Shown piece by piece: positions 39,260 through 55,149 of a DNA stretch of 64,000 nt (within the stretch, counting starts at the first letter, position 1; every line of letters begins with the position of its first letter). Both the position numbers and the translations under genes were made by a program. Below the pieces are notes generated by a model. That model was not told the DNA's origin. It was given only the letters and a program-made list of their open reading frames with translations, and searched no databases. The DNA is from a virus. The stretch is from the IMG/VR virus record IMGVR_UViG_3300046665_000434, positions 1 through 64,000 of that record; one strand, written 5' to 3'.

Positions 39260-40075
39260 ATGACTACAGTCGTATTTGATGGGAAGATTCTGGCAGCCGA
39301 TTCGCGGTGTACTGTTTTTCACAACACTACCGAAGAGGTCTGCACAAACTGTGCGACATCAGCTAACCGTACTATCAAGTCCTACGTGAAACTCCGCGTA
39401 CCGAAGAAGCCGGTGAAGTTCAAAGGCCAGACAGTGGCGGCAGTTACCGGCGCCGGTGCGACTGACTGGACGCACGGTATTCTCCACTGTATCGAGAATG
39501 AACTCGATATCGCAGCAACCCTCACGGCCATGTCGATGTTCGTCGCCAATACGTCCAGACCGCGACTGGTCTTTTCGGGGCGGGTGATGGTGGTTACTGT
39601 AGACGGCGCTTGCTGGCTGCTGGAAACCGAGGGTAATAAACTCAAAGAGACTGAAATCAAGGAGTTCCCGATCTCCATCGGCAGTGGTAGCAAAGCCGCA
39701 ATGACTGCCATCAAGTTCATGGGCCTTTCTCCTGTCGAAGCGGTCATGGTGGCCTCAGACATTGATGAAAGCACCGGCGGCGATGTGTCGTGGATATCGC
39801 TTGACGCTCCTGAGAAATTGGAGACCGTGAAGTTCAAACCTGGTTTCGCTGATAAGTTCAAGAAGGCCAGCAAAACTCCCACTGCCGCCAAGACACCTGC
39901 GGCTACACAGTCATCGGCCCCCAAGCGCTCAAACCCAGCGGCTGCTACCACCGCCAAAGCCCTCGACGCTGTTATCAAACACACCAAGGAGAATGTGAAA
40001 CCGAAGCAACTCGCTAAGAAACCACTTCGCCGCGGTGAAGCTGGACTCAAATCAACGCAGGAGACTAAGAAATAA
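39260..40075 (+). CDS. Proteasome-beta/HslV-like Ntn protein (paralog A)
   Basis: 271 aa. After removal of Met1 the chain would start TTVVFDGKILAADSR, matching the beta-subunit pattern with Thr1 nucleophile and the AAD of Asp17. A Lys-rich KLRVPKK segment sits where the K33 region is expected, then GQTVAAVTGAG (second strand pair) and ISIGSGSKAAMTAI (about 138-151, cf. the GSG of beta subunits), and D-x-STGGDVS near 167-176. Residues ~200-271 form a Lys/Ala/Pro-rich tail absent from HslV. I infer an Ntn-fold peptidase-like subunit; activity is unproven. Confidence 0.72.
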   Translation: MTTVVFDGKILAADSRCTVFHNTTEEVCTNCATSANRTIKSYVKLRVPKKPVKFKGQTVAAVTGAGATDWTHGILHCIENELDIAATLTAMSMFVANTSRPRLVFSGRVMVVTVDGACWLLETEGNKLKETEIKEFPISIGSGSKAAMTAIKFMGLSPVEAVMVASDIDESTGGDVSWISLDAPEKLETVKFKPGFADKFKKASKTPTAAKTPAATQSSAPKRSNPAAATTAKALDAVIKHTKENVKPKQLAKKPLRRGEAGLKSTQETKK

Positions 40076-40776
40076 TGCGCCCATCGCCATTAACGATTCG
40101 TTTCTTGGCCCATGATGACTACGCTTACGAGGTGGTCAGATCGGAAGTCAGTAAGGTCACCTTTGATCCGGAGTTTGCTGAGCGATTCACTATCCAGATT
40201 TATTCTGGCGAGTTGGATCGTTCGATGGTAACTTCTGTCGATGCGGTAGCTTGTCCAGGCAATACGTTCGGCGTTATGTCTGGCGGTTTGGATCTGGCGA
40301 TTGCTGATCTGCTGCCTGGCCTGAGTGAGGGTGTCGCCAAGTCGGTAAGGCTTACGGCTGTCGGCGAACTCAATATCGGCGACTGTCGAGTCATTCCTCC
40401 GGTAGTGTGGGCGAATGAAGAATCCGTCGAGTTTGGTGTCTGTCTACCGATAGTTATCTACGCACCTACTATGCGATACCCTGGGCCGCTGCCGCAGCCT
40501 AACGATACCGCATACGCCGCGATGACGGCCGTACTGAATGCGATTTGGGATTATAACTACCCAACTCGACCTCTGCGCTATCGAGCAACTGGTAAGGACA
40601 TCACCAGTGTACTGATCCCACTGTTCGGCGCAGGTACTGGAATGGTCCCTGTCCGTACTGCCATCAGGCAACAGTTGCTGGCACTCACCAACACAGTGAA
40701 GAAGCCGATCGTTCGAGATGTCCACGAATACGCCAAAGCGCGTAATGACGAAATCGCTGCTACTTGGAGAATCTGA
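40075..40776 (+). CDS. Second macro-domain protein
   Basis: 233 aa. ATG overlaps the preceding stop by one base. The loop VDAVACPGNTFGVMSGGLD (about residues 53-71) and LIPLFGAGTGMVPVRTAIRQ (about 182-201) fit the two ligand loops of macro domains, of the type that binds ADP-ribose. It is longer than a minimal macro domain, with additional strands between the loops. Coupled to the proteasome-like gene. Probably binds or processes ADP-ribose or a related nucleotide. Confidence 0.78.
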   Translation: MRPSPLTIRFLAHDDYAYEVVRSEVSKVTFDPEFAERFTIQIYSGELDRSMVTSVDAVACPGNTFGVMSGGLDLAIADLLPGLSEGVAKSVRLTAVGELNIGDCRVIPPVVWANEESVEFGVCLPIVIYAPTMRYPGPLPQPNDTAYAAMTAVLNAIWDYNYPTRPLRYRATGKDITSVLIPLFGAGTGMVPVRTAIRQQLLALTNTVKKPIVRDVHEYAKARNDEIAATWRI

Positions 40777-48624: not shown

Positions 48625-48915
48625 ATGCAAATCTCCACCGCTGATCTGACCAAACTGAAATCTGACGACGTAGGCACCTTTGCCATCATGGCGCTGCAAA
48701 GCGAAACCACCGCCGTCCTGCTGGGCGAAGGCGATGTGCAAGTTACCGCGACCCTGGATGCTGTGAAAGAAGGCGAAACCCCGGTTATCACCGCTCCTGG
48801 CACCAAGGTCTACTTCAGCGCCGACGGCGTCGTCTTCCAGACCCATGCTCCAAAGTACTCGGCTCCTAAGGCCAAAGCTGCCCAGGGCTCCGTGACGATG
48901 CGTCAACAAGGCTAA
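48625..48915 (+). CDS. Highly biased small protein, 96 aa
   Basis: ATG 48625 after AAAAGGTAAG. The C-ending codon bias matches the abundant late proteins, suggesting strong expression. Beta-rich soluble domain with an Ala/Lys/Pro tail (residues 75-96). Flanked by a promoter-like motif and a strong terminator, so it forms its own unit. No family recognised. Confidence 0.66.
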   Translation: MQISTADLTKLKSDDVGTFAIMALQSETTAVLLGEGDVQVTATLDAVKEGETPVITAPGTKVYFSADGVVFQTHAPKYSAPKAKAAQGSVTMRQQG

Positions 48916-48940: not shown

Positions 48941-48971
48941 ATATAGAGCGGGTCGATGACCCGCTCTATAT
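48941..48971 (+). terminator. Hairpin terminator
   Basis: Perfect stem atatagagcgggtc / gacccgctctatat around a 3-base loop, followed by tgtccttttatttt. Confidence 0.82.
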
Positions 48972-48997: not shown

Positions 48998-49567
48998 ATG
49001 TCGTTGGTTCTCTACCATAATGGCCAATTGGCTGGTGACCGTTTAGGTCGGTTGTTTGCTCACAGTCATCTTGAAACTTGCGAAGACATGCAGAAGATCT
49101 TCGTCAATGATGCCAAGACGATCGCGATCGGTTACTGTGGTAACGCGGTGGATAGCGCATCTATCTTTGCCGTCATGGAAATCCTCAAGATTCGGATGAT
49201 GAGCCGAGAGGCCGAGTTATCAGAAGAAGGGTTCCTAAACGATGCTGAGGTTGATTGGGGGCCGATCAACAAACTGCCGACTTCGATGATTGCCATGACG
49301 CATACCCAGGCCTGGCATTTCGATAATGTCAAGGATAAACAGTTCACCGACATCACCGATGCTCGGGTAGCCATGGGGAATGGGTCGTACATGGGCTACG
49401 TCTGTCTTGCCCATGGCCTTACTCCTCACGATGCGGTGATCGAAGTGAGTAAGCTGTCTACTGACGTAGGTTACGGTGTTGACTCGGTCAAGATGTCAGA
49501 CCTCAAGCCTCTGAACCCTGCGGTCAAGAGAAAGCCTACCCCGCGCCGTAAAGGAACTCAAAAATGA
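48998..49567 (+). CDS. Proteasome-beta/HslV-like Ntn protein (paralog B, Ser1 type)
   Basis: 189 aa from ATG 48998. After Met removal the N-terminus reads SLVLYHNGQLAGDRLG, matching the beta-subunit start with Ser in place of Thr1 and Asp at the D17 position. MQKIFVNDAKTIAIGYCGN (about residues 31-49) aligns with the conserved QKIF(K33)...AGxG segment of proteasome beta subunits, and VAMGNGSYMGYVCLA (124-138) with the GSGSxYA element. Serine can serve as an Ntn nucleophile. First gene of a three-gene overlapping operon with an AAA+ ATPase. Confidence 0.75.
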   Translation: MSLVLYHNGQLAGDRLGRLFAHSHLETCEDMQKIFVNDAKTIAIGYCGNAVDSASIFAVMEILKIRMMSREAELSEEGFLNDAEVDWGPINKLPTSMIAMTHTQAWHFDNVKDKQFTDITDARVAMGNGSYMGYVCLAHGLTPHDAVIEVSKLSTDVGYGVDSVKMSDLKPLNPAVKRKPTPRRKGTQK

Positions 49568-50109
49568 GTAATCTCGTACTGATGCAGGATGATCGAATCT
49601 CAATCCCCACTACCCTCATGAAGACCAACGAACTACCAACCCGGATTGCGGTCGATACGTTGATGCTTCCGGCCGGGTTGGTCATTCCGTTGGAGTGGAA
49701 CTACGGCAGTGTTGTGGACTATCTCGAAGGTAACTACAATACCGAATGGCAGGCACGGTCTGTTCCGGCGTTACTTGTTACGCCAAGTGGTAAGCTTTAT
49801 GAGTTCTTCATTGCCGAATCAAGGGAGCCGTTAGGCAACGAGGATTGTATCTATCCGATCACTGCCAGACGGTTGCTGCATGGTAAGGGTACGCGTTACG
49901 CTCGTGCTCAAGATATTAAACATGAAGAGATCGGCACCATGGCTCTTCACCTAACCGGAGACATTGACAAAGCGTTTGCGTTGGCAAAGAAGGTTGAGAC
50001 AAGACTTCAGTGGAGTTACGAAGTCTGGTCCATCGAAGAGATTACGAAGGCCCTGCATGCTAAGGGCTATACCGAAGACAAACCCTGGGGAAGGATGTTT
50101 AAACAATGA
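49564..50109 (+). CDS. Operon partner of the proteasome-like gene, 181 aa
   Basis: Overlaps both neighbours by 4 bases. Hypothetical. A segment near residues 100-145 (ARRLLHGKGTRYARAQ ... DIDKAFALAKKVE) vaguely resembles the helix after the GSG element of proteasome-like proteins, and the N-terminus lacks a Thr/Ser/Cys-2 catalytic start in the right context. It could be a degenerate third Ntn relative or an unrelated adaptor; I cannot decide. Confidence 0.62.
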   Translation: MSNLVLMQDDRISIPTTLMKTNELPTRIAVDTLMLPAGLVIPLEWNYGSVVDYLEGNYNTEWQARSVPALLVTPSGKLYEFFIAESREPLGNEDCIYPITARRLLHGKGTRYARAQDIKHEEIGTMALHLTGDIDKAFALAKKVETRLQWSYEVWSIEEITKALHAKGYTEDKPWGRMFKQ

Positions 50110-51257
50110 GTATCGATACGCTGATCATTGATGAAGGGCGCCACATCACCATCGACTTACTCGACCTGTCCAAACGGATCGATAAAGTTCCTGCCATGGT
50201 CTATCACATTCGGATGACCGCCGATGGTCGCTCGGTTCTGGCGAAGTCTCGTGATAAGTTTGTCGTCCCGAAGAAACGGTTCGGTAAACACGAGCTCTAC
50301 AAGAAAGAGATCCTCGCTCGTTATCTCGAGTGTAAGGACTCCATGGGCGCTCTGTTCAACGGCCTGAAAGGTGCCGGTAAGTCGATGCTTGCAGAAGATC
50401 TCTGCAACGAAGTGATCAAGATGGGTTATCCGATCATCCACATCGACAGCGAACTCCCGCCGAGTTTGATCCGCAAGTACATGAAGTTCATCGGGCCGTG
50501 CGCATTGTACTTCGACGAGTTCGGCAAGTACTACAAAGAAGAGCAGCGTAACGGCATGCTGACCTTCTTCAGCGACACTTCGCACGAGAAGGTTCTGTTC
50601 CTGGTGACCTCGAACACCACCATGGAGTTGAATGACTTCATGATTGATCGACCTAGTCGGTTCCTGTTCCGTATCAACTTCGATGGCGTGGACGCCGAGC
50701 TGATGACTGAGATCATCGAGGACTGGAAGCTTGAGCCAACTATCAGCGAGTATTTGATCGAGTACTGTAAAGTACATCGGGTCTCGTTTGATGTGATCAA
50801 TGCTATCTCCAGGCCAGCAATGGACAGCCGTACGGTCAAGGAGTTCGCCGATAAACTCAAGGTACTCAACGTCCCTCAGGCGATCTTTCCTCGCATCCGT
50901 GTTCGCAGTGTGATTTACAATGGCGAACCTTGGAAGGGCGATTACAAGGTCGATGAAGAGAACGGGAAGCTGTCTATCCAGCTCTTCAAACTGGGTGAAG
51001 TTGAGGCTGAGTATTCCGGCGAAGTCGAATGGCTGACCGCCAAGAAGATCATGCTCTCCACCGGCGTGTACAACGTCGAGTTTGATGCGGCGTTGACTGT
51101 CAAGCTGAACCGGTCATTCGCACCGTACAAGTTTGCCGCGGAACGCGAGTCGCCGGATTATGATTCTGAAGAAAAGGGTCCGCGGCGCCGTGGCGGATAC
51201 CTGGGTGACGGACACATGCCACCACCGATGATTTCGCCATTCACTAACGGGGGTTAA
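50106..51257 (+). CDS. AAA+ ATPase
   Basis: 383 aa. Walker A GLKGAGKS (residues 86-93), Walker B ALYFDEFG (133-140), a sensor-1-like LFLVTSNT (164-171) and a DRPSRF element with a candidate Arg finger (181-186). An N-terminal domain of ~80 residues precedes the ATPase core and a C-terminal domain (~280-383) ends in a Gly/Pro-rich tail without an HbYX docking motif. Overlaps the previous gene by 4 bases and thus shares an operon with a proteasome-like protein. It may be the unfoldase of that system or a separate motor. Confidence 0.82.
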   Translation: MSIDTLIIDEGRHITIDLLDLSKRIDKVPAMVYHIRMTADGRSVLAKSRDKFVVPKKRFGKHELYKKEILARYLECKDSMGALFNGLKGAGKSMLAEDLCNEVIKMGYPIIHIDSELPPSLIRKYMKFIGPCALYFDEFGKYYKEEQRNGMLTFFSDTSHEKVLFLVTSNTTMELNDFMIDRPSRFLFRINFDGVDAELMTEIIEDWKLEPTISEYLIEYCKVHRVSFDVINAISRPAMDSRTVKEFADKLKVLNVPQAIFPRIRVRSVIYNGEPWKGDYKVDEENGKLSIQLFKLGEVEAEYSGEVEWLTAKKIMLSTGVYNVEFDAALTVKLNRSFAPYKFAAERESPDYDSEEKGPRRRGGYLGDGHMPPPMISPFTNGG

Positions 51258-51263
51258 TTGACC

Positions 51264-51656
51264 ATGACCAAATACGTCAAAGGTGACATCATAGTTCACC
51301 GTAAAGGTGGGCGGTACGTCGTCGCCTACACGCCAGACGACGGGTTTCGTCTGGAACACAATAATGAGCCAGCGTATGCCTATCGTCGAGTGACTTCGGC
51401 GGGGGTTGTAAACGATACCTGGTTGCGTGGACAATCGGAAATTGAAGACGAAGCTCGTTTTCGTCATCTGTTCCTTAAAATCAATATCCCGGTGACCAAG
51501 AGTCCTCCCGGCCAGTTCGTTTTCATGACCCTCGATATCCTCGGAGCGTTGAAGCAGGTTCTCGATCCGATCCATATCGGCACTCTGATGGGCGATTTCG
51601 TACCAGCCGACGACGGAGCGAATCTCTCGTTCATGGAGGCTCCTGCTCCGGTGTAA
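51264..51656 (+). CDS. Hypothetical protein, 130 aa
   Basis: ATG 51264 lies 11 bases after GGGGG; the TTG at 51258 is a possible start. Basic beta-rich N-terminus (KGDIIVHRKGGRYVV). Fourth gene of the AAA+ unit by spacing (7 bases), ending before a terminator. No recognised family. Confidence 0.62.
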   Translation: MTKYVKGDIIVHRKGGRYVVAYTPDDGFRLEHNNEPAYAYRRVTSAGVVNDTWLRGQSEIEDEARFRHLFLKINIPVTKSPPGQFVFMTLDILGALKQVLDPIHIGTLMGDFVPADDGANLSFMEAPAPV

Positions 51657-51667
51657 CATAGACGATA

Positions 51668-51711
51668 CCATGGAGGGGCTTGCGCCCCTCCATGGATCTA
51701 CTTTCTTTTTG
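51668..51711 (+). terminator. Intrinsic terminator with T-tract
   Basis: Stem ccatggagggg / cccctccatgg (51668-51695), then T-rich tract to 51711. Ends the proteasome-like/AAA+ unit. Confidence 0.84.
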
Positions 51712-54249: not shown

Positions 54250-55149
54250 ATGAAACGAATGCTCCTCTCCCTGTGTCTTCTGCTCACGGCATCGTTTGCC
54301 TTCGCAGATACCGCTCCCCTGAAAACCATGTCGTTCTGCGGCGGCGCTACCGGCGGCTTCTACGACGCCGTTGCCAACCAGATCGGCTACACGCTGAACA
54401 AGACCAACAAAGTCAAAGTCAACGTGGTCAGCACCAACGGCAGCCTCGACAGTGCCAACAAACTGAAAGACGGCGATTGCGATATGGCCATCCTCCAGTC
54501 TGACGCCGTCATCAGTCGTCCGATGCCGATCAACATCACCGTCATCGACGGTCATGAAGAAATGATCTTCTGGCTGCACAGCAAGAAGGGCGTCAAAGAC
54601 TTTGCTGATCTGACCGACAAGGACAACATCAACAAAGGCGTAGCCGTGATTGAGAAGGGCGGCACCGAGATTACCATCCGTAACTTCGGCCGTTCGGACA
54701 AGGCTCTGGAAAACCTGAACGTCATTCCGTTCGATTCGTGGTGGGATGCGGCGCGGGCCGTGGTCGAAGGCACTGCTCGTAACTCCGGCAAACAGATCCC
54801 TATCGCAGGCATGCTGTATATCGGTCGTCCAGGCACCATCCCTCAGGAAATCCTGGCTGACTACAAGGCTGATCTGATCGTCGGTTCGACGTCCGTTGAT
54901 TCTCTGAAGTCGCTCAAGGACGCTAACGGCCAACCTCTGTATACGAACTGTTCGGTTGACGATAAGGCTTCCAACGGCATCACAGTGCCTGGCATGTTCA
55001 CCAACCCGTCGACGTTCTGCCTGAAGGCTCAGGTGGTCTACAATAATGACTTCTTCGCAGGCATGCCTGACAAAGATGCACGGGAGTTGCGTAAAACCGT
55101 TGATCAAACGGTGGTCCGTACATTTCGCATCCAGCAAGGCGCGAAGTGA
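54250..55149 (+). CDS. Exported TAXI-family solute-binding protein
   Basis: 299 aa, close to the usual ~310-330. Signal peptide with a Leu/Ala-rich core and AFA before the cleavage site near residue 19. The mature protein starts with FCGGATGGFYDAVANQIG, matching the TGGxYY start of TRAP-transporter TAXI-type periplasmic binding proteins, followed by VNVVSTNGSLDSANKLKDGDCDMAILQSDA (about 58-87), the STGGS and GExDxAxVQxD elements. Strong C-ending codon bias. I infer an exported solute binder, with ligand unknown, made by the phage. Confidence 0.82.
   Translation: MKRMLLSLCLLLTASFAFADTAPLKTMSFCGGATGGFYDAVANQIGYTLNKTNKVKVNVVSTNGSLDSANKLKDGDCDMAILQSDAVISRPMPINITVIDGHEEMIFWLHSKKGVKDFADLTDKDNINKGVAVIEKGGTEITIRNFGRSDKALENLNVIPFDSWWDAARAVVEGTARNSGKQIPIAGMLYIGRPGTIPQEILADYKADLIVGSTSVDSLKSLKDANGQPLYTNCSVDDKASNGITVPGMFTNPSTFCLKAQVVYNNDFFAGMPDKDARELRKTVDQTVVRTFRIQQGAK

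Follow-up and report, generated by a model that had tools for sequence, protein, structure and literature searches.

A possible proteasome-like module of jumbo phages: predicted active and inactive subunits encoded beside a Bcs1-like AAA ATPase

Introduction

Overlapping genes in the virus DNA studied here may encode a proteasome-like module of jumbo phages, consisting of an active N-terminal-nucleophile (Ntn) hydrolase and a subunit that shares its fold but is catalytically dead, with a Bcs1-like AAA ATPase as neighbour. On sequence comparisons and structure models, the chances of this reading are put at about even. Phage HslV-like proteins are already known, both as the phage proteasome homologues PPH and as the 'peptidase HslV family'; what looks new is the pairing of subunits and their linkage to an AAA gene. 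Viral proteasome homologues are described as known from sequence only, and their survey found neither co-occurring AAA+ interactors nor a functional context for them (Fuchs et al. 2021, PMC8665760). A conserved active and dead pair beside AAA genes would be a compact, testable system for the origin of two-subunit proteasomes, and a possible means for large phages to alter the host proteome during infection. Other large phages have gene sets of a similar kind, which suggests that a proteasome-like machine is carried by some phages themselves.

Gene organization of the cassette

The window (the whole stretch of DNA analysed, 64 kb) lies within a virus record of 154,261 bases. A DNA search of the region against the phage collection gave no match and no close DNA relative. 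The features discussed are listed below with their short names.

48625..48915, plus strand: SMALL, 96 aa, low-complexity basic tail (homologues directly upstream of NTN at other cassette loci)
48941..48971, plus strand: terminator-like hairpin between SMALL and NTN, at the same place in 14 of 14 loci folded
48998..49567, plus strand: NTN, 189 aa, proteasome/HslV-type Ntn hydrolase, predicted active (phrog_1040, catalytic residues, weak PDB profile matches)
49564..50109, plus strand: PART, 181 aa, probable catalytically dead proteasome-fold subunit (AlphaFold2, Foldseek against PDB and BFVD, position after NTN)
50106..51257, plus strand: ATP, 383 aa, Bcs1-like AAA ATPase without pore loops, with C-terminal beta domain and disordered tail (Pfam AAA, phrog_2376, model and Foldseek, spacing)
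51258..51656, plus strand: ORF after the ATPase, no family match, probably in the same transcription unit as the ATPase
51668..51695, plus strand: terminator-like hairpin closing the putative unit
39260..40075, plus strand: second Ntn paralogue, Thr1, 271 aa, CxxC insert, outside the cassette (phrog_1040, 1.8e-20)

The open reading frames, their coordinates and the four-base overlaps through 49564 had been described correctly in the initial annotation: ATGA at 49564-49567 joins the NTN gene to the PART gene, and ATGA at 50106-50109 joins the PART gene to the AAA gene. The feature is real and conserved and no product of chance, but has been little described. Three points are additional to that annotation: what the 49564 product is, a conserved gene upstream at 48625, and the hairpin at 48941-48971. 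The sequence of this hairpin varies among loci and usually has a T-rich tail; the order of SMALL and NTN is thus kept across an apparent transcription stop. Together, the hairpins at 48941-48971 and 51668-51695 suggest that NTN, PART, the ATPase and the 51258 ORF form one transcription unit. Sigma-70-type promoters were not found in the cassette region.

The Ntn hydrolase

The mechanical ORF of NTN opens at 48956; the start at 48998 has GGAG just upstream and is the position at which the homologues begin (M[ST]xxx). In profile searches NTN matched phrog_1040 ('peptidase HslV family', E 8.7e-13) and phrog_11389 (E 4.5e-13). The phrog_1040 model also matches control genomes, including E. coli and several archaea, and PDB profile matches of NTN were weak (best E 0.0066), nearly all of them being proteasome or HslV and most of them proteasome subunits. 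The Ntn type assigned earlier was borne out by the residues, with Ser1 following Met1 and the equivalents of Asp17 and Lys33 at residues 14 and 33. In all NTN relatives Met1 is followed by Ser or Thr, and the Asp (in GDR/ADR/ADS-like motifs) and the Lys (in an xxKxF-like segment) are retained. The QKIF...GYCGN and GNGS segments pointed out before are indeed present, both GNG glycines being invariant in the family, and a propeptide is absent. From its sequence, NTN is assigned to the proteasome/HslV family of Ntn hydrolases.

Relatives of NTN occur in Erwinia phages (Agricanvirus, EaH1), in Pseudomonas phage DT01, in Serratia phages Moabite and PCH45 and in Cronobacter phage CR5. Family-level scans found them on many IMG/VR jumbo contigs, while a scan of IMG/VR for close relatives gave none. 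NTN resembles the phage homologues PPH and AAH in being a phrog_1040-type phage hydrolase of the proteasome/HslV superfamily with Thr1/Ser1, Asp17 and Lys33 and no propeptide; PPH, however, is described as being about 140 residues long and lacking helix H2, against 189 aa for NTN (Fuchs et al. 2021, PMC8665760).

The middle gene

The strictest and most constant partner of NTN is the PART gene, not the ATPase gene. PART lies directly after NTN at every cassette locus examined, across a dozen lineages or more; for PCH45 and Huxley the place is taken by a gene of PART size, with profile detection absent or weak. It belongs to phrog_8172, which has no assigned function, and comparison with Pfam and PDB profiles gave no known family. 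Homology of NTN and PART from sequence alone was considered and rejected as too weak and alignment-dependent, the profile comparison giving E 0.001 with one alignment and 0.009-0.06 with others, near the values of unrelated pairs. The claim on PART therefore rests on predicted structure.

The AlphaFold2 model of PART (pLDDT 84.7, pTM 0.83) was compared with the PDB by Foldseek, and the top eleven matches were all of the proteasome family (BPH 5ovu, S. acidocaldarius 20S, Anbu and other 20S chains). The best match, BPH 5ovu, had a probability of 0.96 but a marginal E of 0.012 and a TM of about 0.43. Against BFVD, close relatives and unnamed phage proteins were followed by 'Proteasome subunit beta' of phage CcrBL9 and by HslV-like phage proteins. 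Judged from the model, PART has a high probability of adopting the alpha-beta-beta-alpha Ntn fold. Its aligned relatives vary in the residue that follows Met1 and share no Asp17-like residue, and PART is probably a dead subunit of the same predicted fold as NTN. With its proteasome-like model and no conserved nucleophile, PART is probably an alpha-like, dead subunit that the phage makes together with an active beta-like one. A second, dead subunit is not described in the consulted sections of the PPH/AAH study, where BPH is proposed to be an ATPase-independent particle (Fuchs et al. 2021, PMC8665760), and a literature search with partial journal coverage yielded no paper describing such a paired subunit.

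The AAA ATPase

By sequence, the 50106 product is classed as a classic AAA protein. It matched Pfam AAA (6.8e-7) and phrog_2376 (ATPase, 1.6e-50), and a PDB profile search gave p97/Cdc48 as best match with Rpt subunits next. The Walker A, Walker B, sensor-1 and Arg-finger-like residues, recognized in the initial annotation, proved invariant in 22 relatives. The lack of an HbYX docking tail was likewise confirmed, the tail (348-383) being disordered and free of the motif.

The further proposal that this ATPase is an unfoldase feeding the peptidase was not supported. The ATPase profile runs nearly gapless onto 6g2v, a p97 chain in whose deposited sequence the two pore-loop stretches are missing, whereas gaps are needed at the pore loops against normal p97. 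Walker A and Walker B are 40-47 residues apart in 31 family members, 51 in p97 D2 and 46 in 6g2v. Between beta2 and Walker B the family has no pore-loop-1 segment and no aromatic-hydrophobic-Gly motif, and in the model of the ATPase (pLDDT 85.8) strand 110-113 is followed by helix 119-129, which leaves no space for a pore loop. An insert corresponding to the HslU I-domain is absent between Walker A and B. The 50106 ATPase is not a canonical unfoldase. Foldseek ranked Bcs1 and YjoB first for the model (TM about 0.41). Structure prediction and fold search, which had been proposed as a check, came out proteasome-like for PART and Bcs1-like for the ATPase. Since Pfam BCS1_N gave no match although Bcs1 ranks first in the fold search, the ATPase 'works like' Bcs1 at most; an extra C-terminal beta domain also sets it apart from Bcs1 and YjoB. 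Bcs1 translocates the folded Rieske protein (PMC12219900, PMC11143374).

The ATPase family was found in 320 phage records. In five of these, sampled outside the jumbo set, no annotated Ntn gene lies beside the ATPase; in four of them the entire record lacks an Ntn match, and in the fifth a match lies about 100 kb away. The family is widespread and, as far as sampled, mostly occurs without the cassette.

Conservation of the cassette among phages

The pairing of NTN with an AAA gene, suggested earlier from this locus, stands in part: the linkage recurs in jumbo phages in two gene orders, but several phages keep the NTN-PART pair without the ATPase. Among the IMG/VR relatives of the ATPase, the order of the window, with NTN near the ATPase on the same strand, is found at loci L011-L019 and also at L049, where a second ATPase copy lies beside the cassette. 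The order ATP-SMALL-NTN-PART is found at L024, L027, L029, L030 and L036 and in DT01. Few other neighbours are common to the two classes; within each class synteny is broad, and the ATPase linkage there is thus partly due to common descent. The ATPase lies 8-10 kb away from the Ntn gene in G012 and G014, and L028 and L037 keep the ATPase and SMALL with NTN absent. The NTN-PART pair without a homologue of this ATPase is present in AH06, EaH1, G002, Moabite, PCH45 and CR5.

The order ATP-SMALL-NTN-PART recalls mpa-pup-prcB-prcA, and for this reason SMALL was considered as a Pup-like tag. This idea was set aside, the C-termini of SMALL proteins not resembling Pup.

Other AAA genes accompany the pair in some phages. 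In Derbicusvirus (CR5, Phobos) a BCS1-type AAA gene (BCS1_N 4.9e-10) lies upstream of NTN-PART and an HslU homologue (PDB HslU 2e-52, GYHGK motif) about 2-2.3 kb downstream. Many jumbo phages have BCS1-type AAA genes, so the former neighbour may be a coincidence. A specific homology of the window ATPase to this BCS1-type AAA was rejected (E 0.003, like any AAA). The HslU homologue of CR5 (L062:3343-5406, Cronobacter phage CR5 109742-111805) carries an insert of roughly 390 residues. In Huxley an NTN homologue is followed, after about 2 kb, by an HslU-like gene, and an HslU-like match was found in record MT710307 of Salmonella phage pSal-SNUABM-04, the phage of a paper that reported HslV and no HslU (PMC7823757). 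A CR5-type HslU-like gene was not found in G000, DT01, G010, G011, G016, G019 and G021, nor an HslU-like gene in the virus record of the window, and EaH1, Moabite and PCH45 have NTN-PART with neither this ATPase nor a CR5-type HslU homologue. The HslU-like gene and this ATPase may exclude each other, a suggestive pattern with too few lineages to claim it.

Proposed function and alternative explanations

In the proposed module NTN would lose Met1, and its exposed Ser1 would act with the Asp and Lys present as an N-terminal-nucleophile peptidase. The ATGA overlap would couple the production of PART to that of NTN, and PART would have, by structure prediction, the same fold with the catalytic residues gone. 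The two probably build a mixed ring or antechamber, like the alpha and beta subunits of the 20S proteasome; the existence of a mixed NTN-PART particle is slightly favoured. The ATPase would be a Bcs1-like ring ATPase without threading loops and, if it works with the particle, which is the weaker part of the proposal, it may remodel, release or deliver folded or bound proteins rather than thread them. The module would likely serve the selective turnover or the processing of proteins, from phage or host, in the infected cell. A more general version, in which jumbo phages possess a two-subunit proteasome of alpha/beta-like type, is rather unlikely. In it, a threading-deficient Bcs1-like AAA partner would present proteins that are folded or in complexes in some lineages, and an HslU-type partner would serve the proteasome in others.

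The gene order prcB-prcA is that of the actinobacterial 20S proteasome. The likeness of the cassette to 20S proteasomes lies in active and inactive subunits of one fold, predicted here for adjacent overlapping genes; it differs in the very low sequence similarity and in a SMALL protein that is not Pup-like, and the module is known here from genes and models. The likeness to HslUV lies in NTN, which resembles HslV, and in the Derbicusvirus trio with its nearby true HslU homologue. However, a classical HslUV-like machine, with the 50106 ATPase threading substrates into a homomeric NTN ring, is improbable. Its gene linkage is conserved in several jumbo-phage lineages and the AAA motifs are intact, but the ATPase is not HslU-like, belonging to a family without pore-loop-1 or aromatic pore motif and closest to Bcs1, and its disordered tail has no HbYX. 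Moreover, the pair without the ATPase and the ATPase without the pair both occur, and PART, which has no counterpart in HslUV, is ignored in such a machine.

A stronger competitor, although it falls well short of even chances, is that NTN-PART works independently of an ATPase or with a host or phage unfoldase of HslU/ClpX type, the 50106 ATPase being a mere neighbour with another function. The pairs of EaH1, Moabite and PCH45, the true HslU homologue of Derbicusvirus and the wide spread of the ATPase family in phages agree with this, but the recurrence of close linkage to NTN-PART in two gene orders does not. Very improbable is a specific processing enzyme or protein ligase, acting for instance on SMALL, instead of a degradative protease. 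SMALL is a conserved upstream neighbour with a low-complexity tail, and connectase, a proteasome homologue acting as protein ligase, is described (Fuchs et al. 2021, PMC8665760), but the SMALL tails are not strictly conserved and the terminator-like hairpin parts SMALL from NTN.

Other genes in the window and near related cassettes

In the Ntn paralogue at 39260-40075 the CxxC insert sits between the Asp17 and Lys33 equivalents. Noxifer, L004 (two tandem copies) and L052 have this insert as well, and its cysteine pair may serve in metal binding or bond formation. The adjacent gene at 40075-40776 has weak macro-domain similarity (Pfam Macro_2 0.013) and matches phrog_2613 and a 'tail protein' PHROG. 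On one jumbo contig the Bcs1-like ATPase gene is present in two tandem copies (L026:6538-9200). A gene for a DHH/DHHA1-like phosphoesterase lies between PART and the ATPase at L011:4624-5466, L014:7143-7985 and L018:6456-7295. Near the cassettes of the same three loci there is also an NMT1-like gene, as at 54250-55149 of the window, where it encodes a secreted-looking (solute-binding) protein that is unusual for a phage (Pfam NMT1_3 4.4e-7).
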